A DNA stretch of 64,000 nucleotides. Origin: Chryseobacterium herbae (lineage in GTDB: Bacteria; Bacteroidota; Bacteroidia; Flavobacteriales; Weeksellaceae). Of this stretch, positions 3,477-33,476 are shown one piece after another (the first letter of the stretch is position 1; each line of letters opens with the position of its first letter). The translations under genes and the position numbers were made by a program. The notes under the pieces were generated by a model that saw only the letters and a list, made by a program, of their open reading frames with translations, was not told the origin of the DNA and made no database searches. Location of the stretch: contig NZ_JAOAMU010000001.1 in assembly GCF_025154075.1 (NCBI RefSeq), forward strand, positions 209,991 to 273,990, in the 5' to 3' direction.

Positions 3477-3501
3477 TTCACAAAAATAAAAGAAAACTGC
3501 T

Positions 3502-3609
3502 TAAGCATCGGACCGATCAATGCTTACAGCCTATTGTTTTTTTCATTTAAATTATGTTTAGACGGAGGGATTTCCCAAGCCAAAAAGGTCGAAAGGAAAT
3601 CCCTTTTTT
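3502..3609 (+). terminator. Hairpins between the two ferredoxin genes
   Basis: TAAGCAT (3502-3508) pairs with ATGCTTA (3520-3526), and a T7 run lies about ten bases beyond. A stronger hairpin follows: GGGATTTCC (3567-3575) pairs perfectly with GGAAATCCC (3595-3603), followed by T6. The second is a good Rho-independent terminator or attenuator 29 bp before the 4Fe-4S ferredoxin start. Confidence 0.65.
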
Positions 3610-3638
3610 AAAATCACCATTTAAAATCTTACCTATTT

Positions 3639-3989
3639 ATGGCAATTAAAATAACAGATGACTGCATCAACTGCGGAGCCTGCGAACCTGAATGTCCTAA
3701 CTCAGCTATTTATGAAGGAGCTATCGATTGGCGCTGGCAGGACAAAACAAAACTTTCGGGGGAAGTTGTCTTTCCGGACGGAACAGAAATAGATGCAAGT
3801 AGCTTTCAACAGGCTTACTCAGATGATGTCTACTACATCGTACCCGGAAAATGCACGGAATGTAAAGGTTTTCATGAAGAACCACAATGTAAAACAGTTT
3901 GTCCCGTAGACTGTTGTGTAGACGATCCGGACCACCGTGAGACCGAAGAAACTCTGTTGGATCGTCAGCGATTTTTACATACAGAATAG
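3639..3989 (+). CDS. 2[4Fe-4S] dicluster ferredoxin
   Basis: A 116-residue ferredoxin. The first cluster motif is [12 protein letters not shown] (residues 9-20). The second is [13 protein letters not shown] with CPVDCC (about residues 73-93), carrying the insertion typical of the YfhL/Bacteroidetes subgroup. It is a cytosolic low-potential electron carrier. It follows the broken [2Fe-2S] ferredoxin gene by 162 bp with a hairpin between them, so it may be transcribed separately or by read-through. The start ATG immediately precedes the conserved AIKITDDC. Confidence 0.93.
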
Positions 3990-4190
3990 AAGTCTTTTTG
4001 AAAGTCAGAAAGCTAACAGTTCTTAAAAAACAAATTCCTGTTAATCAGAATCTTGTCTTTTTTTTAGTTAACAAAATAAATGAAAAATACGTCAAGTTGT
4101 TAACAAGTTTTTAATGGTGGTTTTTTTATATCGATGATAAAGTTTTTTTAATTGCAGAGTTATTTAACTGAAATTAAAAGCTTTACACGT

Positions 4191-6329: not shown

Positions 6330-6395
6330 TTTCAGCTCGGCTTGAGTCGGATACAAACAATTCACAGTAAAAACCATAATATACTTTTTATAGAT

Positions 6396-6476
6396 AACAG
6401 GCAGGAGATATTCTTTTTCTCATAGTACACTATTTAGAATTTAAATTTATATCCCGATTCTCCTGTCCTGTTTTTT
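6396..6476. terminator. Imperfect terminator hairpin between convergent genes
   Basis: ACAGGCAGGAGA (6397-6408) pairs with TCTCCTGTCCTGT (6459-6471) with a single bulged base, and T6 follows. The loop is long (about 50 nt). It lies between the subtilase stop and the stop of the minus-strand reductase gene. Confidence 0.45.
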
Positions 6477-6494
6477 ATCACTGAATTAAATCAA

Positions 6495-7433
6495 TTATGA
6501 AAAGGCTTTGATCTCATCATATATTTTCCGGGTAAAAGGCGTTGCGATGTCTAATTCCTTTCCGAAATTCAAAACGGCACCGCCCAATAATTCGAGTTCA
6601 TTATTTTCTTTTCCTGAATTGACATCAAGCTGCAAAGAAGTGGGTGTTTCAAAAGGGAATGTCCCTGCTTTGGCAAATGTTTTCTGAATAATATCTTCGT
6701 CCAAAGTGATCATTTTTTTGTCAGCAATCATTTTAATCTCTTTCATGATCTCTGATGCTTCATGCTTTTGCCCATCATCCGTACAAACCGTTCCAATGGA
6801 AGAATTATGCTTCGCAGTTACCAGTCCGAAGCTGGCGATGAAAATATATTTGGTCCAGATATCTGTCAGTGAATTATCTTTAAAATCAAAGTCGATTTTA
6901 CTTTCTTTCAGGACATCTACGATCCAGTCTATATCAGCAGAGAAATGTTGAGGATCTCTTCCTACGATCATTTTTCCCGTTTTTCCTTTATGCTCTACAA
7001 CCCCTTTTTCTTTGATATGGGAAGCTACATAAAGACATGTCGGCAGAATAACGTGATCTGGAATTATTTTTCTTATTCTTTCGTAAATATCGGCACCGTT
7101 CATCATAGGAAGCAATACGGTATCCTTGCTGATGATGTCTTTAAGCTGCCTGCAGATATTTTCGAGATCATATTCTTTGACACAAATCAATACGAGGTCC
7201 GGATCTTTTACATCAGTTATATTCTGTTCTACAGCATCAGGAAACGTATGATTTACAGACTGTTCCGGTGAGATAAGAACCAGACCATTTTCCTTTACTT
7301 TTTTATACGTTTCACTTCGTGCGATAAAAGTTACCTTATATTTTTGGGAAGCCTCATTTTCCTGATTGATTTTAAAACCAAAATATCCGCCTACTCCACC
7401 TAATCCGGCCACTACAATATGTTTCTTAGTCAT
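6495..7433 (-). CDS. panE: 2-dehydropantoate 2-reductase family protein (ApbA/PanE)
   Basis: A 312-residue NADPH-dependent reductase. The Rossmann motif GLGGVGGYFG is at residues 10-19, and the central ICVKEYDLE and LPMMNGADIYERI segments are typical of ketopantoate reductase. The C-terminal helical domain contains the TSLQLDVNSGKENNELELLGG signature region of this family. It would reduce ketopantoate to pantoate for pantothenate and CoA, although close paralogues act on other 2-keto acids. It stands alone in a convergent arrangement with the subtilase. A single ATG fits. Confidence 0.85.
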   Translation of the reverse strand: MTKKHIVVAGLGGVGGYFGFKINQENEASQKYKVTFIARSETYKKVKENGLVLISPEQSVNHTFPDAVEQNITDVKDPDLVLICVKEYDLENICRQLKDIISKDTVLLPMMNGADIYERIRKIIPDHVILPTCLYVASHIKEKGVVEHKGKTGKMIVGRDPQHFSADIDWIVDVLKESKIDFDFKDNSLTDIWTKYIFIASFGLVTAKHNSSIGTVCTDDGQKHEASEIMKEIKMIADKKMITLDEDIIQKTFAKAGTFPFETPTSLQLDVNSGKENNELELLGGAVLNFGKELDIATPFTRKIYDEIKAFS

Positions 7434-7512
7434 ACATTAATTTTTAACAAAGATGGCTTTCAAATTTGAATATATCACTTGACAAATGCAAAGAAATTAG
7501 AAGGTACATTTT

Positions 7513-7713
7513 AGACATCAGATTTCAGACACAAGACATGAGACTTTTAGGTTGAGGTTAGAAATGGAAATAGTGAATTTTGCTTTGCAAGTGAATGGTG
7601 AATGATAAAGTCAAGATGTAAGAGATCAGATACAAACAGGCAATACTTTAACTATACCATTATGAACCAGCAACTAGCAACGTTATTTTAACTAGCAAAT
7701 GACAACCAGCAAC
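7513..7713. repeat. Dispersed degenerate intergenic repeat, copy A
   Basis: The gap 7434-7740 has no gene. It holds recurring words: AGACATCAGATTTCAGACAC, a 31-bp block at 7573-7603 that recurs with one mismatch at 40832-40862, and GAACCAGCAAC words at 7664-7713. The same order of words appears in reverse orientation at 14761-14940. Confidence 0.6.
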
Positions 7714-7740
7714 CCATCTAAACCTCTCAAACCCGTACGG

Positions 7741-8328
7741 TTACATTTTATTGATGTCCCGTCTGATCCGGCTCAAAGAACTGTCTTTGATCCCCAGATA
7801 GGATGCAATAACTTTCAACGGTACATGCTGGAAAATATCCGGATGCTTTTTCATCAGATTAAAATACCGTGTAGAAGCTTTCTGACTGGCCATTTCGATC
7901 AGCCGGTCGTGGATGCTGTAGTAATTCAGGACAAACAGCAGTCTGCTGAATTCTCTGAATTCCGGGATGTTATGAAAATTATGCTGTACATTTTCCAGAC
8001 CAGTTTCCCAAAACGAACAGGCTGTAATCGTTTGGTAGGTTTCCTTGGCGGGCTGCTGTCTGAAGAAGGATAAAAAGTCATTGACAAAACAGGGTGCTAC
8101 ATATATATTAGTCGTGATTTCTTCATTGTCCTCATTCAGAATAAAGGAACGGACGTAGCCTTTTTCCAGGAAGAATGTCCTCGTACTGACCTCATCTTTA
8201 TGCAGGACAACTTCATTCGCTTTGAGTTCGAAGGAACTAAAGGTTTCTGTAATTTTTTCAACCACCTCTTCTTTGATGTCAAATAAAGAATGGAAATAAT
8301 GATTAATTGAGGACTTATTCATGATCAT
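7741..8328 (-). CDS. Crp/Fnr-family transcriptional regulator
   Basis: About 195 residues. The N-terminal part is a cyclic-nucleotide-binding-like beta roll (ANEVVLHKDEVSTRTFFLEKGYVRSF, then ENEEITTNIY-like strands). The C-terminal winged helix contains LKVIASYLGIKDSSLSRIRRDI. There are no FNR-type cysteines, so it is not an Fe-S sensor of that type, and the ligand is unknown. The frame can be extended to a TTG at 8343, but ATG 8328 (or 8322) is the more natural start. It is divergent from the dehydrogenase gene at 8491 and an inverted repeat lies in the shared gap, so it probably regulates that gene. Confidence 0.88.
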   Translation of the reverse strand: MIMNKSSINHYFHSLFDIKEEVVEKITETFSSFELKANEVVLHKDEVSTRTFFLEKGYVRSFILNEDNEEITTNIYVAPCFVNDFLSFFRQQPAKETYQTITACSFWETGLENVQHNFHNIPEFREFSRLLFVLNYYSIHDRLIEMASQKASTRYFNLMKKHPDIFQHVPLKVIASYLGIKDSSLSRIRRDINKM

Positions 8329-8383
8329 AAAGTGTCGCAACAAGAATCAAAATTAAGCAAAATCCGGAACATTTTCCTTTATT

Positions 8384-8431
8384 AATCGGTTTTATCAATA
8401 ATTACTATCGAAACAATATGCACAACCGATT
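8384..8431. promoter_or_regulatory. 8-bp inverted repeat between divergent regulator and dehydrogenase
   Basis: AATCGGTT (8384-8391) and AACCGATT (8424-8431) are perfect inverted arms separated by 32 bp in the divergent promoter region. They are a candidate operator for the Crp-type protein. The spacing is wide for one dimer, so the role is uncertain. Confidence 0.3.
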
Positions 8432-8490
8432 CAAAAAAATGAAGAAATTTGTGTCGTTCAAACAATTTATCATTTTAAAAATTATCTATA

Positions 8491-9348
8491 TTGAAAACTC
8501 AGCCTGTCATTGCCATTCTTTTCCCTGGAGATATGGGAGTCCAAATAGCCAAAGCACTTATACACCATGATTTTAAAGTCATCACTGCAGGAGAAGGAAG
8601 ATCGGCCCGGACCTTAGATAATATACAAAATTCAGGAATTACGGACACGTACTGTCTTCAGGATACCGTTGAGCAGGCGGATGTTATTCTTTCGCTTACC
8701 AGTCCGGAAGGAAGCCTAAAAATGGCGGAACATATAATTTTATGTCTGAAAACAACCCCAAACCGTCCTCTTTACGTGGATTTAAATTCTAATACGCCTG
8801 CTCTTGCCTCATCCATGGAAGAACTATTTTCGGCCATAGATGTTCCTTTTGTCAACGGAGCTGTAATGGGTGCTTCTAAGGATGTTCCGGACCATGCAGT
8901 GTTGGTCGTGAGTGGCATTTACAGACATCTGTTTATCAATTTATTTGCGTCTGTTTTTAAAATTAAGGATGCCGGTGAAAAAACTGAGGCGGCATCAGCT
9001 TACAAACTTTTATTTTCGATGGTGAATAAAGGAATGAACGCTCTCTTTTTTGAGACTATGACCGCAGCAGCCCATTTCGGAATCCTTGATGAACTGAATG
9101 AGAGTCTTCAGGAATTTCTTCCCGGAACTTATCAGGATCTCATTAAAACAACCCCCACCTATCCGCAACATATCTTGAGAAGGATTGATGAAATGAAAGG
9201 TCTGGCCGACATGCTGAAAAATGAAGGTCTCCCTCATATTATTGCTTCCGGAACTGCCGAAACTTTTGAGAGGGTTTCCAAATCAGGTATTTTTGAGAAT
9301 GAAAACCCTAAAGGAGTTATAGAAACCTTACAGAATTTTAAAAAATGA
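8491..9348 (+). CDS. 6-phosphogluconate dehydrogenase-like NAD(P)-dependent oxidoreductase
   Basis: 285 residues starting at TTG; the next in-frame ATG is inside the nucleotide-binding loop. The N-terminal Rossmann domain (AILFPGDMGVQIAKAL, residues 8-23) is followed by the 3-hydroxyacid-dehydrogenase-like segment YVDLNSNTP and a helical C-terminal domain resembling DUF1932 (SAYKLLFSMVNKGMNALFFE). It probably reduces or oxidises a beta-hydroxyacid or related substrate that cannot be named from sequence. It is divergent from the Crp-type regulator at 8328. Confidence 0.83.
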   Translation: MKTQPVIAILFPGDMGVQIAKALIHHDFKVITAGEGRSARTLDNIQNSGITDTYCLQDTVEQADVILSLTSPEGSLKMAEHIILCLKTTPNRPLYVDLNSNTPALASSMEELFSAIDVPFVNGAVMGASKDVPDHAVLVVSGIYRHLFINLFASVFKIKDAGEKTEAASAYKLLFSMVNKGMNALFFETMTAAAHFGILDELNESLQEFLPGTYQDLIKTTPTYPQHILRRIDEMKGLADMLKNEGLPHIIASGTAETFERVSKSGIFENENPKGVIETLQNFKK

Positions 9349-9399
9349 TCTGATAACAAGTAATCACCGATTTTTTTATTTGATATCAAATGAGTAAGA

Positions 9400-9428
9400 A
9401 CAAAAAAGATCAAGCTCACCTTTTTTGT
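9400..9428. terminator. AT-rich terminator-like hairpin
   Basis: ACAAAAAAG (9400-9408) pairs perfectly with CTTTTTTGT (9420-9428) between the convergent genes ending at 9348 and 9479. The stem provides its own U-rich tail in either direction. Confidence 0.35.
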
Positions 9429-9478
9429 CATTGTTGTGCCTGAATATTGACTATGGTTATAATTTAGAACCTCAGTGT

Positions 9479-9841
9479 TTAAAATTCCTCCCAGCCTTCA
9501 TTCTGCGGATCATATTTTGCAAATTCGCCGGTATCGGTAAATTCAGATGCCGTCATTCCCACTTCAAAAATGGAACTTTCACTTAGACTGGCATTGAAAT
9601 ACAACCCTTTCTCTGTTAATAAGGTATTTCCAAAATCTTCATCCGGATGACTGAAATGAAGCCCATAGTCATCTTCTCCTGTTAATTGATATTTGTACCT
9701 TAAAAGACGTTCTTTTAATCCTGTAACCTGTTTTTCCGTAAAGGGTACAAGATTTTCTTCCCTGTCAAAAAAGCTGTCATCATCAGCTGCCTGTTCTTTT
9801 TCTTTTGTTTCAACGGTGAATAACTGAATATTGTAGCTCAT
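9479..9841 (-). CDS. Conserved hypothetical protein, acidic
   Basis: About 120 residues, not recognised. It begins MSYNIQLFTVETKEKEQ and is rich in Asp and Glu, with a middle segment FTEKQVTGLKERLLRYKYQL and a C-terminal part FEVGMTASEFTDTGEFAKYDPQNEGWEEF. The ATG at 9841 is preferred over a TTG at 9847. No signal peptide or membrane segment. It starts 10-17 bp after the monooxygenase gene on the same strand, so the two are probably one transcript. Confidence 0.7.
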   Translation of the reverse strand: MSYNIQLFTVETKEKEQAADDDSFFDREENLVPFTEKQVTGLKERLLRYKYQLTGEDDYGLHFSHPDEDFGNTLLTEKGLYFNASLSESSIFEVGMTASEFTDTGEFAKYDPQNEGWEEF

Positions 9842-9857
9842 AAGCAAGGTGTGATTA

Positions 9858-10850
9858 TTAATTGGCCAATATAATACTTTTGTAGGTATCTACGCGATCT
9901 CTTTCCCGATACATATTACAGAGGATCAGGAGTTCATACGTATTATATTCCTCAGCCTTTTCCAGAAGCTTTTCTGATATATTTCCGGGAGTCCCCAGAA
10001 TAATATGATCCAGAATCTTAAAAAATTCTTCTTCATCTTCAGTTCCGAGAATCCTCTGTTCAATGGTTTCACTGGGAAGCAGCGCTTCAGGAGCCTGAAT
10101 ATGCCTTGCCTGCAGAAACTGGTAAGCCATTCCGTAGGCATTGTAGCGGGCCGATTTCAGATCTTCTGCCACTGAAACGGCAACGGCGACCTGTAGTGAA
10201 GGAACCGGACTATACTGATTTCTGTCAAATTTGTTTAGATACGTTTCCGTACTGTCCAATCCCTGGTCATTTCTCATAAAATCTGCATAGGAATACCCTA
10301 CGCCATGTTTTGCGGCTTCTGTAGCAGACTGAATTCCGGAGCCCAGCCAAAGAATCTCAGGAAGGTGGGCAACATGTGTGGGTTGCGCAATAAGTCCGTC
10401 ATAAATCCCTTTCTCTTCTTTAATATATTGTATGATTTCTTCAAGTTTGGTTTCCTGACTGGATAAAATAACAGGTCTGTGATTATTAAGCGCAGAAACG
10501 GCATCCTTTAAACCTCCCGGCGCTTTTCCCAGTCCCAGAATAAAACGCTCAGGATACAGGCTGCCGAGCATTTTGGCCCATTCCGCGATCTTATAGGCTG
10601 AATAATTCTTCATCATAATCCCTCCTGTTCCTACTTTGATGCGTTTGGTCTTACTTAATATTACTGCAGAAAGAATCTCTGGACTGGCGCTTCCATAGGC
10701 TTCCACACCGTGATGCTCAGAATAGATCACACGATGAAATCCTGCTTCATCTGCAAATACGGCGAGATCGATACTGTTCTTTAAGGCCTGTAAAGCACTT
10801 CCCTTTTCAATAGTTGGAGACTGATCCAGAATGCCCAATTTTAATTTCAT
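9858..10850 (-). CDS. Luciferase-like flavin-dependent monooxygenase (MsnO8/YhbW-like)
   Basis: A 330-residue TIM-barrel flavoenzyme of the bacterial luciferase-like class. Signatures are LGILDQSPT at the N-terminus, RVIYSEHHGVEAYGSASPEIL around residues 40-60, VGTGGIMMKNYSAYKIAEWAKML around 73-95 and LGLGKAPGG around 106. It would use reduced FMN from a separate reductase. The substrate is unknown. It is followed by the acidic hypothetical gene and preceded by a TPR protein gene 53 bp upstream on the same strand. Confidence 0.9.
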   Translation of the reverse strand: MKLKLGILDQSPTIEKGSALQALKNSIDLAVFADEAGFHRVIYSEHHGVEAYGSASPEILSAVILSKTKRIKVGTGGIMMKNYSAYKIAEWAKMLGSLYPERFILGLGKAPGGLKDAVSALNNHRPVILSSQETKLEEIIQYIKEEKGIYDGLIAQPTHVAHLPEILWLGSGIQSATEAAKHGVGYSYADFMRNDQGLDSTETYLNKFDRNQYSPVPSLQVAVAVSVAEDLKSARYNAYGMAYQFLQARHIQAPEALLPSETIEQRILGTEDEEEFFKILDHIILGTPGNISEKLLEKAEEYNTYELLILCNMYRERDRVDTYKSIILAN

Positions 10851-10903
10851 ACCGGCTGTTTACTTTTACTGTAAAACTAAAAATAATTTATAGATTGAGA
10901 GGC

Positions 10904-12043
10904 CTATATCTTTGAACTTAATGCTATGATTCGTGCTTTGACATACGTGATCTGCTCCTGTTCTTTCTCCGGATCCGGTTTGTTTTTCAGATACAGATTA
11001 TAGTAAGTGACCGCATTTTTGGTCTGTTTCAGGTTGAAATCATAGAGAAGTCCCAAACGGTAATAAATTGTATGATTAGTATGATGAAACGTAAGACCTC
11101 TTTTATACGCCTCCAAAGCCTCTGAAAATCGATTTTTATTTTCATAAATGCCCGCTAAAGCAATATAATAAAGCTCTATATGCTTTGATATCCCTTCATC
11201 GATGGTTTTTTCAGCATACATGAGTGCATTATCATAATCCTTCAGCTCGCGATAACTCAAAGCCATATAATATAAAGTTCCTTCATTCTGAATCCCCAAA
11301 TCTTCTAATGTTTTAAAAGCAGCTGCACATTTCTGATACTCTTTTAAATAGAAATAAGCCTGCCCCATCTCATTGATCACATTGGCATCCGCATCCTCCT
11401 TCATGAGCTTCTCTCCTGTTTCAATGACTTCTTTGTATTTTCCCAGCTGATTAGCCAAAGGAAGCTGTGCAGATTGTAATGTAAAGTTGGCGTTATCAGC
11501 ATCGATAGCTATTTTGAGCACGTCATAGGCCCGTTGATACTGCTTAAGTTCACGGTAAGCTGCAGAGAGATCAAAAGCAACATCAGGATCCGTAGTATTC
11601 AAGGTATTGGCTTTTTTCAGATAACTCAGTTTTTCTTCAGCAGTATCTCCCAAACCCGCCAATTGTCTGTAGGCATTGAAATTAAGGCTGTCCAGCTGAA
11701 CAATCTGTAAAAGGTAGGTTTTGGCTTTCGTTCCGTTCCCTCTTCTGGAATTGATATTTGCTAAACTGAATAAAACAGGAATATTATCGGGTTCTGCAGC
11801 ATTCACTTTCAGGTAGTTTTTCTCTGCTTCCGGCAGCTTTCCCGACATCATGTGACAATAAGCCATTTGGGTCAATGCTTTGATGTCTTTCGTATCTTCA
11901 GGATAGATGCTTTGAAGATATTGGGCAGCTTCAGCATAGCGTTGGGATTCATAATACTCAAGGAGTTTTTCTTTATCGATTACCTGAGCCGTAAGAGTTG
12001 GAATGCTGAAAATAAAAAGACAGATGCAAAGCAGGATTTTCAT
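10904..12043 (-). CDS. Exported tetratricopeptide repeat protein
   Basis: 379 residues with a signal peptide (MKILLCICLFIFSIPTLTAQ) and about nine TPR-like helix pairs through the rest, for example QMAYCHMMSGKLPEAEKNYLK, YRELKQYQRAYDVLKIA and YYNLYLKNKP. It is probably periplasmic and acts as a protein-interaction scaffold. No enzyme motif is seen. It is divergent from the AraC-type regulator at 12233 with a 189 bp gap between them. Confidence 0.85.
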   Translation of the reverse strand: MKILLCICLFIFSIPTLTAQVIDKEKLLEYYESQRYAEAAQYLQSIYPEDTKDIKALTQMAYCHMMSGKLPEAEKNYLKVNAAEPDNIPVLFSLANINSRRGNGTKAKTYLLQIVQLDSLNFNAYRQLAGLGDTAEEKLSYLKKANTLNTTDPDVAFDLSAAYRELKQYQRAYDVLKIAIDADNANFTLQSAQLPLANQLGKYKEVIETGEKLMKEDADANVINEMGQAYFYLKEYQKCAAAFKTLEDLGIQNEGTLYYMALSYRELKDYDNALMYAEKTIDEGISKHIELYYIALAGIYENKNRFSEALEAYKRGLTFHHTNHTIYYRLGLLYDFNLKQTKNAVTYYNLYLKNKPDPEKEQEQITYVKARIIALSSKI

Positions 12044-22639: not shown

Positions 22640-24079
22640 TCACAGCAAGCTGTCAAAAAACTGATAGATATCTGTTTCCGTAGGAATGTTCAGTTTTTTT
22701 CTAAGTCTGTATTTTTTCTGCTGAACAGATCTGGGCTGAACCGAAGTATAGCCTGCAATATCTTTGGAAGTAAAATGAAGTTTCAGCATTGCACAGAAAA
22801 CCAGATCCGAATTTTCAAGCTCAGGATTCAAAGCCAGTACATTTTCAATAAATCCGGGGTAGGCTTTTTTAAACGTGTCTAAAAATCCGGGGTCGTTTTT
22901 TTTCGCCAGCTCAATCACTTCTTCCCGGGTATTGTCATGCATCTGGTCTTTCAGCTGTTCTGCCTCGTATTTAAGTATGATCCGTTTATCTTTCAGCTGC
23001 CTGATGATCTTCCACAGATACATTCCAACCACCGATAGAATAAAAAGTGAAACAATGCACAAAAGCAGTATCTTACTTCTATGCTGTTCAGAATCGGTCT
23101 CGGTCTCCGTGATAAAGCCTTCCATGTCATTGTTGATCGCTTCCAGCAAAGCGGTATCAGACCTGCTTCTTTCCTCTGTATAGGCCTGTAAAAATAAAAG
23201 CGCCTTTTCCTTATCTCCCATACTCTCATACAGGGATTTAAGATCTGTATACACATATTTTGTATACTGAGCGAAGACATATTTCGTTTTCTTATTGATT
23301 TCCAATGCCTTCAACAGTGACTTTTCCGCTTTACCATACTGTTTAGTCATCATATAATATTCGCCAAGCACAGTATTGGCATTAAGAGCCACGCCATCAA
23401 CCCTACCCTGCAGGTTAGATTTTTCTGCTATTGAAGACAGATAAAACCGTGCTGAATCCATATTTTTAAATCCATACAGATAAAGATCGCCGATAGCACA
23501 TTCTATGCGTCCTGAATGGTCTAATTTCCCTGCTTTACGAAAATACTCCAACGCAGGATCGTACATCTTTTTCCTGTAAAAATAATCCCCGCGCTTATAG
23601 TAAATTTTAAAAAGAACATCATTGCGGAACGGCGAGTCTTTAGTATCTTTTATATAACTCATCGCCAAATCATTATACTCAAAAGATTTGTCCAATCGTT
23701 TAAGATGCAACTGAAAATTGCTAAAGTCATTGTAGAATTTGGCTTTGTGAATATTGCTTTTCGAATATTTAAGGAGTTTTTCAGCTTTATTAAAGAAAAA
23801 TTCTGCTCTCTTATAATTTTCAAGGAGTATATTTACATTGCCGAGATTAAGAAAACATAATGCCTTTCCCTCGGCATAACTGATCTTTTCAGCTTTCTGA
23901 TAGTAGTCTTTATTCAGTTTCATCAAAGCATCATAATTACCCGAAAGACGCAACTGTTCATTCTGTTTCAGTAAAGGGGTGTCAAAATCCTTTTCATATT
24001 GGTCAGGATCTTTACTGCAAGAAAGCAGGATGAAAAATAGTGCGAAAGTAAGACAGCGTATCATGATACGTTTTTGCAT
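22640..24079 (-). CDS. TPR lipoprotein with transmembrane segment and LuxR-like C-terminal HTH
   Basis: About 479 residues from ATG 24079 (MQKRIMIRCLTFALFFILLSC); the frame extends 14 codons further upstream without a signal-like sequence. The N-terminus ends in a lipobox-like LLSC. TPR repeats fill residues 40-310, one TM segment follows (LLLCIVSLFILSVVGMYLW, about 335), then a coiled coil. The C-terminal helices (LHFTSKDIAGYTSVQPRSVQQKKYRLRKKL) resemble a LuxR/sigma-region-4 HTH. This predicts an envelope sensor whose output domain is cytoplasmic. It is a paralogue of the next gene, 57 bp away on the same strand. The ligand and target are unknown. Confidence 0.85.
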   Translation of the reverse strand: MQKRIMIRCLTFALFFILLSCSKDPDQYEKDFDTPLLKQNEQLRLSGNYDALMKLNKDYYQKAEKISYAEGKALCFLNLGNVNILLENYKRAEFFFNKAEKLLKYSKSNIHKAKFYNDFSNFQLHLKRLDKSFEYNDLAMSYIKDTKDSPFRNDVLFKIYYKRGDYFYRKKMYDPALEYFRKAGKLDHSGRIECAIGDLYLYGFKNMDSARFYLSSIAEKSNLQGRVDGVALNANTVLGEYYMMTKQYGKAEKSLLKALEINKKTKYVFAQYTKYVYTDLKSLYESMGDKEKALLFLQAYTEERSRSDTALLEAINNDMEGFITETETDSEQHRSKILLLCIVSLFILSVVGMYLWKIIRQLKDKRIILKYEAEQLKDQMHDNTREEVIELAKKNDPGFLDTFKKAYPGFIENVLALNPELENSDLVFCAMLKLHFTSKDIAGYTSVQPRSVQQKKYRLRKKLNIPTETDIYQFFDSLL

Positions 24080-24136
24080 AAAGTTAATCAATAAAGGTAT
24101 ACAACCATTTTCCGGCTCCAAAATAAAACAGGGTCT

Positions 24137-25570
24137 TTAAATAGCATCTAAAAATTCATAGATATCCTGATCCCCTTCAATATTCAGTTTTTTTCGAATC
24201 CTGTACTTTTTCTGCTGAATAGATTTATGCTGAACAAACGTGTAGTCCGCTATTTCCTTGGAAGAAAAATGCAGTTTAAGCAGGGCACAAAAGGCCAGTT
24301 CAGAATTTTCAAGATAGGGATTGATGGTGAGCAGACTGGAGATAAACTCAGGATATAGTTCTTTAAATTTCATAAGGAAAGAAGAATCATTTCTTTTGGC
24401 CAGTTCCACCACTTCCTGATTTTTCTTTTCGTATACGCGGTTTTTAAGCGTATCGGTCTCTGTTTTAAGATTTTTTTTCTTGAGTTTTAAATACTGTATA
24501 TTTTTCCAGACAGACATTCCGGATACCGAAAGGACGATAAGGGACAAAATTCCAATAACCCACAAATCATTTTCCCGTTTATCCGACTCTTTTTTGGCTT
24601 CAGCTATAAAGCTGTCTGTAGTAGTGTTGATGGCTGCAAATCTAGCCTCCGCGAGCCTGTTGTCCTCCTCCAGATATTTATTCAGATAAAAATAAGCCTT
24701 TTCTCTGTCTTTTTTCTTTTTGTAGAGATCTGCAAGGGCTTTGTATACCTCTTTAATGTGAAAAGAATAGGTAAGTCTGGTTTTTATACTGAGTTCCAAT
24801 GCATTCTTCAGCATTTTCTCAGCTTCGTCGAAATGGTTGATTTCGTTATTGTAATACCCAACTGTATAGTAGATCCAAAGTCTTTCAACATCGGGTGTTT
24901 TGTGGCTGTTCATCATCTCTTCTGCCCGTAATGCATATATTCCTGCTGAATCCAGTTTGTTGGTATAGAGATGATACTGGGCCATCATACAGTTGGAATA
25001 CGCAGACTTCTCCAAAGCATTCCCTTTGTGAAAATTTTTCAGTGAATTTCCAAACTGTCCTTTCCATGCAAAATAAGTTCCCCGATTGATATAAATTCGC
25101 GGCATCAGCTTCTTTTTAAGCTCTGAATCCGGTGCTTTTTTCAAAGAATAGAGTGCAGAATCACTATAAATGATCGCTTTATCATACTGCTTGAGATGTG
25201 AATAATAATGGGCATAACTGTCGTAAAATTTCGCCCTGTGAAAATTATTTTCCGATCTTTTGAGACTTTCTCCGGCCTTATCCAAAAGAATATGAGCCCT
25301 CTCATAGTCCCCTTCTGTAGAATTGACATTAGCAACGTTGAGAAAGCAAAGTCCTTTGCCCTCTTCATACCCCATTTTACCAGCTTTCTTAAAGTATTCC
25401 CCATTAAGGCGGACAAGCGCTTCAAATTCGCCGGAAGCATTCAGGTCATTATTCTTCCTGATTAACGGTACATCAAAGTCTTCTGTATGATCGTAGGTAG
25501 AAGTCTGGCTGCATGAAATAATAATAAATAATACAATCATCCGTAGTGTGCGGACTATCAAATTTTTCAT
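24137..25570 (-). CDS. TPR lipoprotein with transmembrane segment and LuxR-like HTH (paralogue)
   Basis: 477 residues with the same layout as its downstream neighbour. The signal sequence is MKNLIVRTLRMIVLFIIISC with a lipobox-like IISC. TPR repeats come next, then a TM segment (LWVIGILSLIVLSVSGMSVW, about 325), a Lys/Glu-rich coiled coil and the C-terminal HTH LHFSSKEIADYTFVQHKSI followed by QQKKYRIRKKLNI. The HTH is almost identical between the two paralogues while the TPR parts differ, so they may recognise similar DNA but different cues. The pair arose by tandem duplication. Confidence 0.85.
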   Translation of the reverse strand: MKNLIVRTLRMIVLFIIISCSQTSTYDHTEDFDVPLIRKNNDLNASGEFEALVRLNGEYFKKAGKMGYEEGKGLCFLNVANVNSTEGDYERAHILLDKAGESLKRSENNFHRAKFYDSYAHYYSHLKQYDKAIIYSDSALYSLKKAPDSELKKKLMPRIYINRGTYFAWKGQFGNSLKNFHKGNALEKSAYSNCMMAQYHLYTNKLDSAGIYALRAEEMMNSHKTPDVERLWIYYTVGYYNNEINHFDEAEKMLKNALELSIKTRLTYSFHIKEVYKALADLYKKKKDREKAYFYLNKYLEEDNRLAEARFAAINTTTDSFIAEAKKESDKRENDLWVIGILSLIVLSVSGMSVWKNIQYLKLKKKNLKTETDTLKNRVYEKKNQEVVELAKRNDSSFLMKFKELYPEFISSLLTINPYLENSELAFCALLKLHFSSKEIADYTFVQHKSIQQKKYRIRKKLNIEGDQDIYEFLDAI

Positions 25571-26487: not shown

Positions 26488-26512
26488 TCCACCGAATCTC
26501 CGATTCGGTGGA
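26488..26512. terminator. Perfect 11-bp hairpin between convergent genes
   Basis: TCCACCGAATC, loop TCC, GATTCGGTGGA. It sits between the acetyltransferase stop and the LanB stop. No strong U-run follows directly on either strand, so it could also be a REP-like element. Confidence 0.5.
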
Positions 26513-26538: not shown

Positions 26539-29500
26539 CTATACAACAGGAGTTTCTTTTACGGATGTTTTTTTATTCAACTGGGTTTTATAAAACTTCA
26601 GCATAAAATTATAAATCACCAGCTCCTGCTTTCTGTGTTGGGAAACGAGCAGCCTGTTAAAGAACATATGAATTAAGCTTCCCACGTAACTGTCACGGTC
26701 TTCCCTGCCCTTTTCACTTAAAAGATTATCAAGCGAGAAAGAGTTCAGGAATGAATCAAACAGTCTGTAAACATTGGCTAATTCATTATTTTCCAACCCG
26801 ATAGAGCTGTGAATCGACTGTTCGGATGCTTTATATTTTGTGGCTATTACTTTTGTCAGGGCTTTGTTGGAATTGAATTCCTGATTGAACTGGCTGCTCA
26901 ACTGAGTGAAAAATTCCATTTTCCCATCCAGCGTATACGCAAACTTATCAAGCAGTTTATCTATGAAAACAGTTCCCGCCAGCCAGCGATCTTCAAACCC
27001 GGTCTCTTCAAGTTCCCTCAGCAGAAGCATGACCATGGTGCTTTCTTTACCGAAATACGTTTCAGAGAATTCAATGCCGGCATAATCATACCTTTCGAGC
27101 TCTCTTTTGTAAGTGGTGATTTCAAATGACTTGATGATATCCTGCTCAATGTATTTTTCCATCGCCTCCCGGATATGGGCAAACAGGTCGTTGTAGACCT
27201 CATAATTTTTGATAAAATACCTCAGTCTGATATGATTCCCCTTTTCGTTATACCGTATAAAGAAGAAGTTGTTGATCAGATCTTTTTCAAACAATTTTCC
27301 GTTCAGTTCAAAAAGTTCATTCCTGATCAGAGAGTCCATCTGCTGCTCGCCGGTGTAGATATTCATATATAAACATTCCGACAGCGGGGACAACTTGGAG
27401 CGGCTTCCGGAAAAGTCTTTAAACTCGAAATTCTGTTTTTCATCCTGTATGACAACAGGAATCAGAAGTTCAGAATAAAAAGGTTTCTCATCTGCGTTCA
27501 AAACATTGGAGTTTTCTGTGACCAAATCTTCCACTAAGGTAATTTTCCCTTTTTTCGAGATCATGGAAACGAAAAGACGGATAAAAACATCAGAGGAAAG
27601 ATCAAACAGAAGTTTGTTGTCCCCTTCCACAAGATAAACATGGTCCGGAATTTTCCATTCTTCCCTGAATTTTTTGAATTCTGAGAAAAGGTCTTCTTCT
27701 TTTGCTTTTAAAAAGGTAAGATCGACTTGACTCAGATTCCAGGCAGCTTCTTTGACGATTACTTTTTCGATTTTAACACGAGGGGTAAATTTCGCAAAGG
27801 AATCTATAAAGCCCCATGAAAAGCTGATTGAGCAGTCCCATTGAACCTGGATCAGCGACAGAAATCTGTAAATATGAGACAGGTTCTGCAGCTGGAAGTT
27901 ATGGGAATTACTCAAACGCGGAACGATGATCTTCCCGGTATTTTTATTTCTTAAAATCACCTCTTCACTTCGTATGGAAATGGTAATATCAGAGAGTTTT
28001 ATGGTGTTTTTGATTGTATCGGAAGGTGCCGGAATATTGATCAGGATTTCATCTTTCAGATAGTTTTCCCTAACGACCAGATTCCCATGTCTTAAACTTG
28101 GAAGATCCACTATCTCAGCATATTCTACTGAATCATGCAGATTTTCATATTCTATTTCTACAATTTTTTCGGCCAGTTTCTGCAGCTTTTCAGAGCCATG
28201 GGTAAATCTTCCCATATTATTGACCGCACTGGATCCGAATGCCCCATGAATAGCCGTTGCCGTATGACCTTGATGATCTTTAAACAGGGTCATATTACAG
28301 TTTAGGGTCTGACTGAAAACCCTGGAATAAGAAGGTTTGAATTTTGCACATTCTTCTTTTGTCAATACAACCTCACTTTTCCCAAACTGAAGGGCATGCT
28401 GGTATTTGCTGAACAGATATTGATCAACTTCTGTAAATTTATAATCCTTTCCGCCTCCGGTCTGAAAAAGAATTCCATCCAAAAACGGTGTGGAAATACT
28501 GCTTACGCGATCGGTAAAAATCCCGAGCTCCGGGTCAATTACATGCAAAAGCGGAAGTTCCGATTCTCCATATTTATCTTTAAATTCATCAATAAACTGG
28601 GTCAGCGAAGCGTCTTTTTCTTTCCGTCTGGAATTCAGGTAAGACAGAGAAAGAAGTGTATTTCTTACATTGTGAAAGACTTTGCTGCTGATCTCCGCTT
28701 CACCGTCTCTGAAACTGGTTACATCAATATTCTGCATTTCATTCAAAAGCAGATTTTCGAGTTTTTCAGATGAACCGGCTTCTGATTCTTTGATCACGGT
28801 TTTAAGATTATTCTGAAGTTGAGTTACCTCTTCAATAATTTGATTAAGTGTTTTTTCTTTTTCTTTTATTGAAATAACTTCTTCATTATCTTTAAACTGT
28901 TTCATTTTTCCTATGAATGCCTCTACATACTGATTAGTGGCAGGTGACGGAAAAATATCCATCAACAAGACATTATTTTCAATCAATTCATAAAGATATT
29001 CTTCTACTTCATCACTTTCGTAGCCTTCTTCCTGAAGTTTTGCTGAAAGATCTTCAAAATAGATTCCCTGCCCGCTTTCTGAAAAGATATATTCCAGCAC
29101 ATCGTTGGATGCCACTGATGACAGTCTGTAATTCATCGAATATGGCTTGATGTACAGCTCATTATACCGAATATCATCCGCAATTGTGAAAGCCGTTTGA
29201 TTAGGATACAAAAAACTGTACTTCCATAGGTTTTTACTGCTGCTGATCTCTCTGCTTAATTCATAGATGTAGCTCAGACTTATTCTCATACGGATTTCGC
29301 TCTCCTCTATTTCCACGGAAAATGTGTCGCCACCTTCCTTAAAATCACAAACACCATAGGTTGAAAACAGTCCGAACGGTGTAGATCTTGAGCAGTAGCG
29401 TACATAATATTTTACATAGCTGAAAAACATTTTCTCAGGAAGATCTTTGGTCTCTAAGGCTTTTGTAATTTCCTCAAATAAGTTTTTTGTGGCGTACAGA

Positions 29501-29649
29501 AGCGCCAGTCTGAAGTGTCCTGTAAAGGTTTTTCCCACAAACTTCAGTCCGTCCGTAGCAATATCTTTGATCTCACCGATAGGTTTAAGATCATCAATAG
29601 ACCCGATGGGCGTCCTGAGGATCATTTTATCTATAAATTCAATGTTCAT
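26539..29649 (-). CDS. lanB: Class I lanthipeptide dehydratase LanB
   Basis: 1036 residues, full length for the family, with both domains in one chain. The N-terminal glutamylation domain has YYVRYCSRSTPFGLFSTYG near residues 81-99. The C-terminal elimination domain (SpaB_C type) has NNFFFIRYNEKGNHIRLRYF near residue 790. LanB dehydrates Ser and Thr of the precursor using glutamyl-tRNA. It overlaps the LanC gene upstream by 11 bp, showing translational coupling, and is the last gene of the five-gene operon. Bacteroidetes pinensin-type clusters have been described with split LanB; this one is not split. Confidence 0.95.
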   Translation of the reverse strand: MNIEFIDKMILRTPIGSIDDLKPIGEIKDIATDGLKFVGKTFTGHFRLALLYATKNLFEEITKALETKDLPEKMFFSYVKYYVRYCSRSTPFGLFSTYGVCDFKEGGDTFSVEIEESEIRMRISLSYIYELSREISSSKNLWKYSFLYPNQTAFTIADDIRYNELYIKPYSMNYRLSSVASNDVLEYIFSESGQGIYFEDLSAKLQEEGYESDEVEEYLYELIENNVLLMDIFPSPATNQYVEAFIGKMKQFKDNEEVISIKEKEKTLNQIIEEVTQLQNNLKTVIKESEAGSSEKLENLLLNEMQNIDVTSFRDGEAEISSKVFHNVRNTLLSLSYLNSRRKEKDASLTQFIDEFKDKYGESELPLLHVIDPELGIFTDRVSSISTPFLDGILFQTGGGKDYKFTEVDQYLFSKYQHALQFGKSEVVLTKEECAKFKPSYSRVFSQTLNCNMTLFKDHQGHTATAIHGAFGSSAVNNMGRFTHGSEKLQKLAEKIVEIEYENLHDSVEYAEIVDLPSLRHGNLVVRENYLKDEILINIPAPSDTIKNTIKLSDITISIRSEEVILRNKNTGKIIVPRLSNSHNFQLQNLSHIYRFLSLIQVQWDCSISFSWGFIDSFAKFTPRVKIEKVIVKEAAWNLSQVDLTFLKAKEEDLFSEFKKFREEWKIPDHVYLVEGDNKLLFDLSSDVFIRLFVSMISKKGKITLVEDLVTENSNVLNADEKPFYSELLIPVVIQDEKQNFEFKDFSGSRSKLSPLSECLYMNIYTGEQQMDSLIRNELFELNGKLFEKDLINNFFFIRYNEKGNHIRLRYFIKNYEVYNDLFAHIREAMEKYIEQDIIKSFEITTYKRELERYDYAGIEFSETYFGKESTMVMLLLRELEETGFEDRWLAGTVFIDKLLDKFAYTLDGKMEFFTQLSSQFNQEFNSNKALTKVIATKYKASEQSIHSSIGLENNELANVYRLFDSFLNSFSLDNLLSEKGREDRDSYVGSLIHMFFNRLLVSQHRKQELVIYNFMLKFYKTQLNKKTSVKETPVV

Positions 29650-30844
29650 GGTCTAGTAAAAATAGTTTTTCTAATGGGTTTTTATAGTTTTCATGGGTTA
29701 CAGCGTACAGCTGCAGAAGCAGTCCTGTGCGGCCTTCGAGGATGGTATCCTGTTCTATCCAGCCTTCACTGCCCAACCATGTTCTCATGCCGGTTTCGGG
29801 ATGGCTGCCGATGCTAAGGGTATCCTGGGTCCAGAAATCTGTAGCTTTTTTAAAGGCTTCATTTCCCGTAACCCTGTACAGATATTGGTACATCATGATG
29901 AGCCCGGAACTGCCATGGCATAAGAATACATCTACAACGCCTGTTTTTCCATATTTTCTTTCCGTAGTTTTTAATAGTATTTTTTCAGCTTCCGAAACGC
30001 TTTCTTCATTTCCCAGAGCTTTACCGTAATGCAGCATTGCGATTCCCACGCTCAGATCGCCATAACACCAGGCCAGACGACTGCTGTCAGTGGCTATACG
30101 TTCTCCGTCGCGTACAGTGATAAAATTCGGGAAGCTTGAACCGTCGTAATCTCCCTGTACAGATCTGATGAAATTGTAGGATTTATCCAGCATCTCTCTA
30201 ATGATTCCCTTCTCAATACCAGCCGTATACACATTACTGAGCAGGCTTATGATACTTGGAATTCCATGCGCAAAACCGAATGAAAAGCCTTCCACCTTAC
30301 TGTAAAGACCTTTTGAGATCCAGGCAATTTTGTCTTCGTCTACCGGCACTGACAAGGATTTCAGCAGGTGAACCACTGTGATGATCCTGTCTTTTATTTT
30401 ATGTTTAAAATCATCATCCGTGCTGAAAGAATATAGCTCAAGGCATAAGAACAGAACGCCCATAAAACCATGGAGATAATCGAAATTTCTTTTTCCGGCA
30501 TAGTATTCCAGAAGATCATCGGCATACTCGGGAAATTCTTCGAAGGATTCTTCTATAGGCTCATCAAAATATTTATTTTTGGTAAGGTAAAAGATCAGAT
30601 AATAGATGCCTACAGAACCGGAGCATAGAGAAAAGACCTTGTCATCCTGAAGTCCGTTGAGGGATTTATCAAGATAATGCTCAAACTTTTCAAATGCTTC
30701 ACTGTCGTTAAACAGCTTATGCTTTTCGAAATAATACAGGGCCAGTCCGGGATATCCGGTGAAGATGCCCAGGTCTACAATATCTTCCTTGATCTCTTTT
30801 TCACAGATCTCAATCAGTTTTTTTAATTCATCTAGTTTTTCCAT
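29639..30844 (-). CDS. lanC: Lanthionine synthetase C family cyclase LanC
   Basis: 401 residues. Zinc ligands are Cys260 (LAWCYGD), Cys309 and His310 (FLCHGSSG). The conserved His of GFAHGIPS is at 193. LanC forms thioether rings by adding Cys thiols to dehydrated Ser/Thr. It overlaps the small membrane protein gene by 17 bp and LanB by 11 bp, so the three are translationally coupled. Location is cytoplasmic. Confidence 0.95.
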   Translation of the reverse strand: MEKLDELKKLIEICEKEIKEDIVDLGIFTGYPGLALYYFEKHKLFNDSEAFEKFEHYLDKSLNGLQDDKVFSLCSGSVGIYYLIFYLTKNKYFDEPIEESFEEFPEYADDLLEYYAGKRNFDYLHGFMGVLFLCLELYSFSTDDDFKHKIKDRIITVVHLLKSLSVPVDEDKIAWISKGLYSKVEGFSFGFAHGIPSIISLLSNVYTAGIEKGIIREMLDKSYNFIRSVQGDYDGSSFPNFITVRDGERIATDSSRLAWCYGDLSVGIAMLHYGKALGNEESVSEAEKILLKTTERKYGKTGVVDVFLCHGSSGLIMMYQYLYRVTGNEAFKKATDFWTQDTLSIGSHPETGMRTWLGSEGWIEQDTILEGRTGLLLQLYAVTHENYKNPLEKLFLLDHEH

Positions 30845-31052
30845 GCAGCATTTTTTTTCTGATCAGATACGCAATATAATAAATCACCAACAGCACAATA
30901 AACAGGATTAATGTCCCGAAAGCCACTTCCATGGTCGATTCAGAATTTCTGTATATTTCTATCAGTGAAACGGTTTCATAGTCTAAGTACATCAATAAGT
31001 TTATGGTGATGAAACTTATCAAAAAAAGGGTTATAATACGTTTGGTTTTCAT
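30828..31052 (-). CDS. Small two-TM membrane protein in the lanthipeptide operon
   Basis: 74 residues with two hydrophobic segments (ITLFLISFITINLLMYL and FGTLILFIVLLVIYYIAYLI) and a basic C-terminus (RKKMLHGKTR). Not recognised. It overlaps the S41 gene by 4 bp (ATGA) and LanC by 17 bp, so it is clearly part of the operon. Possible roles are immunity to the product, membrane anchoring of the synthetase complex, or help in export. None of these is shown by the sequence. Confidence 0.75.
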   Translation of the reverse strand: MKTKRIITLFLISFITINLLMYLDYETVSLIEIYRNSESTMEVAFGTLILFIVLLVIYYIAYLIRKKMLHGKTR

Positions 31053-32755
31053 AGTTTTTTGTTGATATAATTAATCGCTTCTTTCAGCTGGATATCCTCA
31101 CCGCTAAGCAAGGAAGCTGCATCTTCCTGAACCAGAATATCAGGTCTGATTCCTGTTCTCTGAGTGGCACTGTAATCAGGCAGGAGAACCCCTATTCCAC
31201 TCATCCGGATTTTCGTTTTTCCGGGTAGCCTGATCACCATCACATTTCCATTCGTCCCTGCTGTATAGTCGCCTAAAGTAACTGAATTTTTTATTGATTT
31301 CATAGCCAGAAGTATGCTTTCACCCTGACTTTGGGTATATTCGTTGATCAAAAGAACAACGGGTCCTCGGTACGCGTCTTTTTTAGAATCAGGAATATGC
31401 ATTTTATTTTCTATGGTTCTCATCATTCCGGGATAGGTGACATCCGCACGGTATAAATTCATAGTTTGAAAAGGTCTGGTATCAAAATACTTGAGGAAAT
31501 CTACCGCAATCTCATTAGGATAAGCCCGCAGATCAAAAATAATGGCTTTACTGTGACTGATTTTCTCAAAAGAAATCCTGAAGTTCCCCGAAAAAATATC
31601 ATTGATTCTGATGTACCCGATATTTTTGTCTATCATTTTTGATACAGCCTTTCCGGCATTGCTTTTATATTCTTTTTCTTCGGTCTCCCTTGCCGTATTG
31701 ATATGCGTTAAATGTTCCTGTATTCTCATCATCCTGTTTTGCCTCACAATATCCAGCTGAACTGTTTTCTTTCTGGAAAGTAACAACAACCGGTTAATAT
31801 CACGGCTTAAAACAACATCATTTGATCCTGAAGTTTTTTCTTTTAAACTGTCCTGCACCGAAAGAATATCCTTCCCATTAATGGCCAATATTTCATCACC
31901 CTTTTTCAGTGCACTTTGAACGGAACCGATGATGAAACCTTTTATAAAAGTTTGTTCTTCTATGGTTTTTAAAACAGCATTTCCTACATATTTTCCGTCA
32001 TACTCATCAGAATCTCCCATTTTAACAGCAACATGGCTGTCTTTTAATCTGGAACCGAATTGCTGAACCGCCGCATAATATGCCTGCTCATTTTTAGCAT
32101 TGATGAATAGAGGCAGCATTTTAAAAAAGACCTCATTCCAAGTTGAGGAAATGCTCTGAAAATAAGGATAATAGTAGCGGGTAATATTCCACAGCTTACA
32201 CAAGGAAAGGAAGCGTTTTGCAGGCGTAGTTTTTGATTCATCATAAAATAAAGAATCATCTTCAAAACTTAGCTCACCGTTGTCTTCAGCTGTCACGAGC
32301 CTTTCATCTGAATTCCGGTAAGATGTAGCAAGAAATTCTACTAATTTTTTTTTATTTTCCGGGTTAATGATTCCGGAAGTTTCAATCCAGTTTTTATCCG
32401 GCAGAAAACCACTATAAGATGGAGAAGATGGATTATGAGCTGGTAACTGAAAATCCCGTGAAATTAAAAGATTAAGATCTGCTTTGCCCGCCATGATTTT
32501 CTCATAGGCTTTGATAAGCGAGGCATCGGACGACCGAATGAAATCCCGATCGGATGAATGGTATTTTATGGCACCCCAGATTTTACACAGTTCCAGCAGC
32601 TCTTTCTCTTTTCCTGTCGCAGTGGAATCACTTATGATCCCTGGAATGCTATTGTAGAAAAGGACAGTGCCTTCTTTAGAGGTATTTCTTTTACTGAAAA
32701 AAAAGATCGCGATCAAAGCCGAAATAAGAATTCCGAAAAAAAATTTGATTTTCAT
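31049..32755 (-). CDS. S41-family protease with internal PDZ, lanthipeptide operon
   Basis: 568 residues from ATG 32755 (MKIKFFFGILISALIAIFFF, signal peptide or anchor); the frame extends 16 codons upstream. A PDZ-like region lies near residue 275 (VQSALKKGDEILAINGKDI). The tail-specific protease domain contains VLLINEYTQSQGESILLAM, with Ser of TQSQGE as the probable nucleophile, and GDYTAGTNGN downstream. Predicted to act outside the cytoplasmic membrane. Its place directly after the precursor gene and its 4-bp overlap with the next gene suggest a role in leader removal, product processing or self-protection; this is inference. Confidence 0.85.
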   Translation of the reverse strand: MKIKFFFGILISALIAIFFFSKRNTSKEGTVLFYNSIPGIISDSTATGKEKELLELCKIWGAIKYHSSDRDFIRSSDASLIKAYEKIMAGKADLNLLISRDFQLPAHNPSSPSYSGFLPDKNWIETSGIINPENKKKLVEFLATSYRNSDERLVTAEDNGELSFEDDSLFYDESKTTPAKRFLSLCKLWNITRYYYPYFQSISSTWNEVFFKMLPLFINAKNEQAYYAAVQQFGSRLKDSHVAVKMGDSDEYDGKYVGNAVLKTIEEQTFIKGFIIGSVQSALKKGDEILAINGKDILSVQDSLKEKTSGSNDVVLSRDINRLLLLSRKKTVQLDIVRQNRMMRIQEHLTHINTARETEEKEYKSNAGKAVSKMIDKNIGYIRINDIFSGNFRISFEKISHSKAIIFDLRAYPNEIAVDFLKYFDTRPFQTMNLYRADVTYPGMMRTIENKMHIPDSKKDAYRGPVVLLINEYTQSQGESILLAMKSIKNSVTLGDYTAGTNGNVMVIRLPGKTKIRMSGIGVLLPDYSATQRTGIRPDILVQEDAASLLSGEDIQLKEAINYINKKL

Positions 32756-32795
32756 AAAATGAACAGCTAAGAAGTTCCCGGCAGTATATCCATAT

Positions 32796-32834
32796 AAAAA
32801 CACAGATGATCTGTTAATTAAAACAAATCATCTG
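32796..32834 (-). terminator. Hairpin/attenuator between precursor and processing genes
   Basis: On the minus strand CAGATGAT (plus 32827-32834) and ATCATCTG (plus 32803-32810) form a perfect 8-bp stem, and TG then TTTTT follows. It sits just after the precursor stop and 41 bp before the S41 start. A partial terminator here would give more precursor than enzyme mRNA. Confidence 0.55.
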
Positions 32835-32855
32835 CAGCCAATAGTTAGCTATTTT

Positions 32856-33080
32856 TTACCACTTTGTACTGTGGAAGAAACCACACCATGTACAAGCTTT
32901 TCTGAAAGTTGTAGAACCTCCGTCAAAACACTTGTCATTAAATGTTGGGGTATCAAAATCTTTGGAAACACCTACTTCTTGTTCCAATTCTAATGCACCT
33001 CCTTTTACAGAGCTCTGCTCTACTTTTGTCAACTCATTGATAACTTTCTTATCAAATTTAAGTTTTGTTAATTTTTTCAT
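32856..33080 (-). CDS. lanA: Lanthipeptide precursor peptide
   Basis: 74 residues. The 28-residue leader MKKLTKLKFDKKVINELTKV plus EQSSVKGG is of the Bacteroidetes GG type and ends in Gly27-Gly28. The 46-residue remainder contains three Cys (residues 51, 63, 66) and nine Ser/Thr, enough for up to three thioether rings. A second Gly-Gly at residues 54-55 would allow cleavage to a 19-residue product beginning STTFRKAC. It is first in the operon behind a strong promoter. The mature ring pattern cannot be deduced from sequence. Confidence 0.88.
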   Translation of the reverse strand: MKKLTKLKFDKKVINELTKVEQSSVKGGALELEQEVGVSKDFDTPTFNDKCFDGGSTTFRKACTWCGFFHSTKW

Positions 33081-33106
33081 GGTTGTTAATTATTTTAATT
33101 GCAGAA

Positions 33107-33135
33107 CAAAAATAAAAAAATATTCCACATACAAA
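33107..33135 (-). promoter_or_regulatory. Promoter of the lanthipeptide operon
   Basis: On the minus strand TTTG (plus 33132-33135), 17 bp, then TATTTTTG (plus 33107-33114). Both elements match the Bacteroidetes TTTG/TAnnTTTG consensus, 26 bp before the precursor ATG. The remaining gap to 33547 shows no other gene. Confidence 0.65.
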
Positions 33136-33476
33136 ACAAAAAATCACGAAACAGGGAGGAATGCCATTTATTCAGGTTCGATGCAGGTTTCTTCTGGTAG
33201 GCTGTTTCATATAGCATTCCATATCACCAATCACCTACATTAAGCCACAGCGAAGGGAAAAACAATAACTGGTGAAAATATTTACTTAATAAAAATAACA
33301 GAATTTATTCATGAAAATAAATTAAAAAAAAATTAAAAAATGAACTAAAATAAGGTGACAATCGGTTTTTTGGTCGATTTTTCAGCTCAGCTGACTCCAA
33401 TTACTTCACCGAATCCGTAGACCAGCACTCAAAAGTTACTTCAATCATCTCAGTTTTTAGTTTTGGCTTTACACGA

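Follow-up and report, generated by a model that had tools for sequence, protein, structure and literature searches.

A 64,000-nucleotide window of Chryseobacterium herbae DNA (contig NZ_JAOAMU010000001.1, positions 209,991 to 273,990) was found to carry an operon of five genes, all on the minus strand between 33.1 and 26.5 kb, in the order LanA precursor, S41 protease, small membrane protein, LanC cyclase and unsplit LanB dehydratase (Table 1). Based on their domains, the intact motifs of LanB, LanC and the S41 protease, the type of leader and their co-inheritance, these genes very probably form a functional class I lanthipeptide operon of Chryseobacterium. The S41 protease is the most distinctive part of the operon; the lanthipeptide class is known, and the S41 variant looks new. 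The last four genes overlap one another by 4, 17 and 11 bases. An earlier note, made from the letters of the window alone, had listed the same five genes, and both the genes and their coordinates held.

The LanB protein carries the glutamylation (PF04738) and elimination (PF14028) domains on a single chain, which places it in class I, and it matched PDB chains 9g04 and 5ehk. Across nine species its motif stretches were largely invariant, as were most of the motif Arg and His residues. In LanC, the zinc ligands Cys260, Cys309 and His310 and the active-site His193 were in place when aligned to NisC and 8byk and unchanged in all nine species. The top NCBIfam score of LanC was to a LanM model, in line with passages of PMC7268733 that note a likeness between certain class I LanCs of Bacteroidetes and the cyclase domains of LanM. 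Dehydration of the core and ring formation are thus predicted from sequence. The S41 protein was assigned to its family by a PF03572 domain and by the motif TQSQGES with the putative catalytic Ser, which was invariant in nine species; a PDZ-like stretch was also present but sub-threshold. A longer open reading frame of this gene begins at a GTG, and we preferred the ATG start because the GTG sits inside a conserved hairpin and single-base gaps separate the GTG from the ATG in two of the nine species. Domain scans of the five genes recovered no LanT, no S8-type LanP and no recognised LanI or LanFEG, which bears out the earlier statement that a transporter and a classic LanP are absent. The neighbours scanned for transporter, protease and immunity domains were a GNAT gene, two TPR genes, a 1161-aa membrane protein and a secreted metalloprotease. 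The unsplit LanB, singled out before as a feature of interest, proved to be common, since LanB is unsplit in 65 of the 90 other LanC loci of the genus. Pedobacter lusitanus NL19 is another member of Bacteroidota reported to make class I lanthipeptides.

LanA was compared across the nine species by the ratio of amino-acid-changing to silent differences per site (pN/pS), and it divided into a conserved leader, a variable spacer and a nearly invariant core (Table 1). The leader is, by eye, of the LxLxKx5L type that PMC7268733, in the sections drawn on here, describes for Bacteroidetes class I precursors, many of these leaders ending in Gly-Gly. It scored 19.2 bits against the class I lanthipeptide model NF038153 (cut-off 22), and LanA scored 16.3 bits against TIGR04149 (cut-off 25), both sub-threshold. 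The silent sites of the core differ at 0.29 across the nine species, and the remaining four operon genes gave pN/pS values of 0.08-0.23. Of eight further precursor families tried from the genus, two gave no value and one was too small; the other five yielded 0.11-0.60 after the first conserved triplet. The LanA core is the most constrained among the precursor families compared. The part beyond Gly28 holds 46 residues with three Cys and nine Ser/Thr, as had been counted before, and the part beyond Gly55 holds 19 residues with two Cys and six Ser/Thr. These two Gly-Gly sites had been read as allowing two possible products, one of 46 residues and one of 19. However, the invariant block encloses the second Gly-Gly, and a cut there would lose Cys51. 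The nine-species comparison points instead to a predicted product of 37 residues, beginning at V38 or S39. The calculated mass of V38-W74 is 4266.90 Da without modification and 4140.83 Da with seven waters lost.

An S41 gene recurred beside lanthipeptide enzymes in other Bacteroidota. LanC reached E 1e-25 or better in 16 genomes of a 395-genome sample of the class; 15 loci from 14 genomes were chosen by LanC alone, leaving out the source genome and one Chryseobacterium already seen. S41 was near LanC or LanB in 8 of these 15 loci versus about 0.5-1.4 expected, the expectation assuming 10-30 S41 genes per genome from first-look counts. Seven of the eight were co-directional and adjoined LanC or LanB, the families involved numbered four, and in locus L281 the order was LanA-S41-LanC-LanB. 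The S41 calls of L285 and L287 were made with our own profile alone. In L280, L283, L288 and L289 the catalytic motif was not matched by a regular expression, and Pfam gave S41 in all four, whose activity is putative. By comparison, LanB, LanC and C39-transporter profiles matched none of the genes listed within about 5 kb of generic S41 relatives, for which 20 neighbourhoods were compared. A single lanthipeptide-specific S41 clade was unsupported, as well-supported branches forced at least two and at least four changes in two trees, and the S41-associated LanCs did not form a single clade either (at least four changes). Because of long branches, the number of S41 recruitments is uncertain. We consider it an even call that class I clusters of Bacteroidota recruited S41 several times as a dedicated extracytoplasmic enzyme acting on the product, either in self-immunity or as a new family of maturation proteases that cut a second time past the Gly-Gly, a two-step process so far described for class II. 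Mutual exclusion of S41 and the C39 transporter was rejected (one of eight versus two of seven class-level loci, p 0.57); a second comparison (1/10 versus 45/89, p 0.018) mixed dependent rows and was not relied on.

We propose that LanB and LanC would act on the LanA core with the leader still in place, dehydrating and cyclising it, and that a C39 peptidase-ABC transporter encoded elsewhere would export the modified peptide and cut after Gly28. Beyond the inner membrane, the membrane-anchored S41 protease would then remove spacer residues 29-37, leaving a three-ring peptide from V38 to W74, and a hairpin after lanA would hold the precursor level above that of the enzymes. S41 probably acts on the LanA peptide, and its cut and the position of that cut are putative. 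The whole mechanism, comprising modification, export in trans, the S41 spacer cut and an attenuator, is tentative, and we rate its chances as slightly short of even. Three points make us lean modestly toward maturation over immunity as the role of S41: its gene directly follows lanA, no stand-alone copy turned up in the genus, and the core has a sharp edge. Parts of PMC10885120 describe a comparable two-step removal of the leader, following a C39 transporter, in the class II peptides cytolysin, lichenicidin and mersacidin, where the first cut leaves a short peptide and a second protease removes the remainder. The class II cases leave mostly hexapeptides and use other protease families, whereas the operon here is class I, with a spacer of 5-9 residues and a putative cut by S41.

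Several observations weigh against this mechanism. PMC10885120, a review of leader proteases of ribosomally synthesized and post-translationally modified peptides, does not contain S41 as a whole word, and the nisin resistance protein (NSR), the S41 enzyme whose action on a lanthipeptide is known, degrades it (PMC4828448, in part). The structure prediction of the window S41 had a mean predicted local distance difference test score (pLDDT) of 47.6, too poor to use. In locus L281 a C39 transporter accompanies S41, which therefore does not simply take the transporter's place. Of the 90 other LanC loci of the genus, 45 had a C39 transporter nearby and one (L041) had S41, versus 2.6-7.7 expected from the same assumed S41 density, which is at or below chance. 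Because this count is no more than chance, it is the gene order of L041, LanA-S41-LanC-split LanB, that gives this locus its weight. The LanC census behind these counts is incomplete: the protein search missed the LanC of locus L206, and the genus loci were hand-picked, some of them ending at contig ends. Finally, families of the genus that have a C39 transporter and no S41 likewise vary right after Gly-Gly, so the variable spacer by itself does not prove that S41 makes a second cut. The same families favor a mature product consisting of the entire 46 residues after Gly28, with its first residues unconstrained and S41 doing another task. Such a product is improbable in our estimation, as pN/pS was 0.70 in the spacer, which also has indels, against 0.015 in the core, a break sharper than in the five control families that gave values.

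S41 could alternatively be an NSR-like self-immunity enzyme that clips the mature peptide at the producer surface, for example in the invariant tail beyond Cys66, with the C39 transporter alone removing the leader. Sections of PMC4828448 describe SaNSR as a lanthipeptide-linked S41 protease that has a membrane helix at its N-terminus and a Ser/His dyad and that removes the last six residues of nisin by cutting after residue 28. The window S41 resembles it in having a single N-terminal helix, read from the sequence, and an invariant Ser and His; the lack of a recognised LanI or LanFEG in the operon and the pairing of S41 with a C39 transporter in L281 also fit immunity. However, NSR is described in non-producers (same sections of PMC4828448), whereas the window S41 lies in a biosynthetic operon and no orphan copy of it was found among the 164 non-carriers of the genus. 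SaNSR is also remote in sequence (4y68, E 0.11, a weak match over residues 204-254 only, in the region of the catalytic Ser), its motif TASSAEM reads TQSQGES in the window protein, and it has 320 residues against 568, the longer protein including the sub-threshold PDZ-like stretch. Moreover, the 74-aa membrane protein, for which a role in immunity or assembly is possible, could be the immunity protein instead. Self-immunity is the less favored role of S41 yet a strong rival, and we regard it as less likely than not.

The operon may also be the ChmABC system of Chryseobacterium sp. OV715, whose LanC has the accession WP_047454108, in which case the chemistry would be known already and S41 and the membrane protein would remain; this is compatible with the mechanism proposed above. 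Both are class I LanABC systems of the same genus. In the passages of PMC9993889 drawn on here, ChmA undergoes seven Glu-tRNA dependent dehydrations and all its Cys are used in three thioether rings; the window precursor has three Cys and nine Ser/Thr after Gly28, and a precursor identical to it was found in another Chryseobacterium genome. However, the genus has many other LanC loci, some of whose precursors also have three core Cys; ChmA was likened by description only, and the source section names LanA, LanB and LanC genes alone. We therefore hold this identity to be possible but doubtful. The view that the precursor is new-looking stood in that LanA, searched against the genus and the plasmid and viral collections but not against families outside Chryseobacterium, had strong matches in only 9 of 173 genomes of the genus and none in the collections, and is qualified in that LanA may equal the published ChmA. 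The lack of plasmid or viral matches to LanA gave no indication of a mobile origin of the operon. Literature on S41 with lanthipeptides and on Chryseobacterium lanthipeptides yielded no S41 in a lanthipeptide cluster, a weak negative that covers partial texts without subscription papers and supplements. According to the portions of PMC7268733 at hand, Bacteroidetes class I clusters often encode a C39 protease, whereas the window operon has S41 and no C39; pinensin shares the phylum and class I LanB and LanC with the window system, but its LanB is split.

The genome search for a peptidase-ABC transporter that the earlier note had suggested recovered three C39-domain proteins outside the operon. 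The first adjoins Gly-Gly peptides, a VKOR/thioredoxin protein and an HlyD protein, the second adjoins another split-LanB/LanC cluster of the source genome, and the third adjoins a radical SAM/SPASM protein. C39 domains were present in all nine further genomes (eight carriers and G022), a 733-aa frame with a C39 domain was common to all eight carriers, and C39-domain proteins of transporter length were found in all nine carriers. Based on these C39 domains, export in trans by a C39 transporter is possible. The source genome contains a second LanC/split-LanB cluster with a C39 transporter (L206, G000:C13:17500-33500, 399-8047, minus strand), whose LanC protein is unusually long at 638 aa with the LanC domain at residues 53-411 (PF05147 1.4e-48). 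At L204 (G000:C8:22000-38000, 5491-11473), a C39 transporter, HlyD and a VKOR/thioredoxin fusion accompany several small Cys-rich Gly-Gly peptides, which are perhaps disulfide-bonded bacteriocins.

The hairpin between lanA and the S41 gene, as folded from the window copy, was matched by none of 200 shuffles. It is present in all nine species by alignment, and three of the nine were folded. The stem is identical in eight of the nine, and the ninth, L038, retains the pairing through a change from U-G to U-A. This hairpin is likely a partial terminator (attenuator) that would hold the precursor in excess. Upstream of lanA, a consensus promoter had been claimed. The -7 box TATTTTTG and the 5' leader are kept in nine of nine species, with DNA farther upstream not kept (alignment by eye); the pattern TTTG-N17-22-TANNTTTG matched three times in the window versus 3.4 expected, a chance level, and L036 has no TTG at the -33 place (by eye).

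Table 1. Features of the lanthipeptide operon in the window, with coordinates in window positions.
Feature	Position	Strand	Basis
Promoter-like site, TTTG ... TATTTTTG, 5' of lanA	33107..33140	-	pattern match and conserved -7 box
LanA precursor, 74 aa	32856-33080	-	
LanA leader, residues 1-28, ending Val-Lys-Gly-Gly	32997..33080	-	pN/pS 0.088, 9 species
LanA spacer, residues 29-37, variable with indels	32970..32996	-	pN/pS 0.70; 5-9 residues in nine species
LanA predicted core, residues 38-74 (V38-W74), VSKDFDTPTFNDKCFDGGSTTFRKACTWCGFFHSTKW	32859..32969	-	pN/pS 0.015; R60/K sole variation
14-bp hairpin then U-run, between lanA and S41	32802..32835	-	window fold -18.7 kcal/mol, z -5.9
S41 protease, 568 aa, single N-terminal membrane helix (read from sequence), His241 and Ser476 invariant	31049..32755	-	PF03572 2.4e-16
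74-aa protein, two likely membrane helices (read from sequence)	30828..31052	-	strong matches only alongside operon
LanC cyclase, 401 aa	29639..30844	-	PF05147 3.2e-42, NisC alignment
LanB dehydratase, unsplit, 1036 aa	26539..29649	-	PF04738 6.9e-95 and PF14028 3.5e-49
Hairpin 3' of lanB, between convergent lanB and GNAT gene	26488..26512	-	fold z -3.1, 1/200 shuffles equal or better

The distribution of the operon in the genus was examined in 173 genomes. LanC orthologues (at least 89%) occurred in nine of them, the source genome included, and the same nine had S41 orthologues (at least 72%; next match 31%) and strong matches to LanA (three others at E about 0.005) and to the 74-aa membrane protein (six others at E 4e-4 to 9e-4, the next being 4.4e-4). 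LanB adjoins the operon genes in all nine carriers, in a fixed order and at one site, as seen in neighbourhood views rather than a genus-wide search. The operon is flanked by the 1161-aa membrane protein, which we take to be DUF2723-like, on one side and by the GNAT and TPR genes on the other. The non-carriers G003, G095 and G033 lack the operon, and in them the GNAT gene comes next after that of the membrane protein; seven further non-carriers of the same clade have different genes at this site. In a tree of the 1161-aa neighbour from 30 genomes, carriers and non-carriers were mixed, with five changes, at least four of them forced. The distances of S41, LanC and LanB track those of the neighbouring gene (Spearman 0.92, 0.87 and 0.89, respectively), and the trees broadly match. 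The mixed carriers and matching trees fit one old insertion with vertical descent and repeated loss. The two related TPR proteins (window 22640-25570, minus strand), which have a weak HTH-like C-terminal end, are kept beside the operon in the nine carriers, and the first of them is also present in G003, G095 and G033.

Other lanthipeptide loci encoded further proteins. Repeated proteins of about 126-423 aa lie beside LanB, LanC and S41 at L280 (7060-8425), L283 (9392-11458) and L285 (2575-5491), in three genomes of other families; several of them start like MAAETQYTANTG. Two were tested against Pfam, the first without a match and the second with a sub-threshold one, and these proteins are possibly unusually large substrates. 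Proteins of about 220-300 aa lie beside LanC at L289 (1087-3660) and L290 (7266-8186), two of them starting like MSYKIYNPY, and the one tested had no Pfam match. In many Chryseobacterium genomes, loci such as L063, L092 and L099 combine a pair of neighbouring LanC genes with near-identical precursors in tandem, and several of these loci show a QSCGQCSC core.

As of 2020, pinensins were the sole lanthipeptides isolated from Bacteroidota (PMC7268733, in part). Species with S41 proteins up to 28% different have the same LanA core, suggesting that the peptide has a fixed target or acts as a signal rather than taking part in an arms race. With S41 recurring beside LanB and LanC, and with an exact 37-residue product predicted, the questions of which proteases finish the lanthipeptides of Bacteroidota and how the producers survive them become directly testable.

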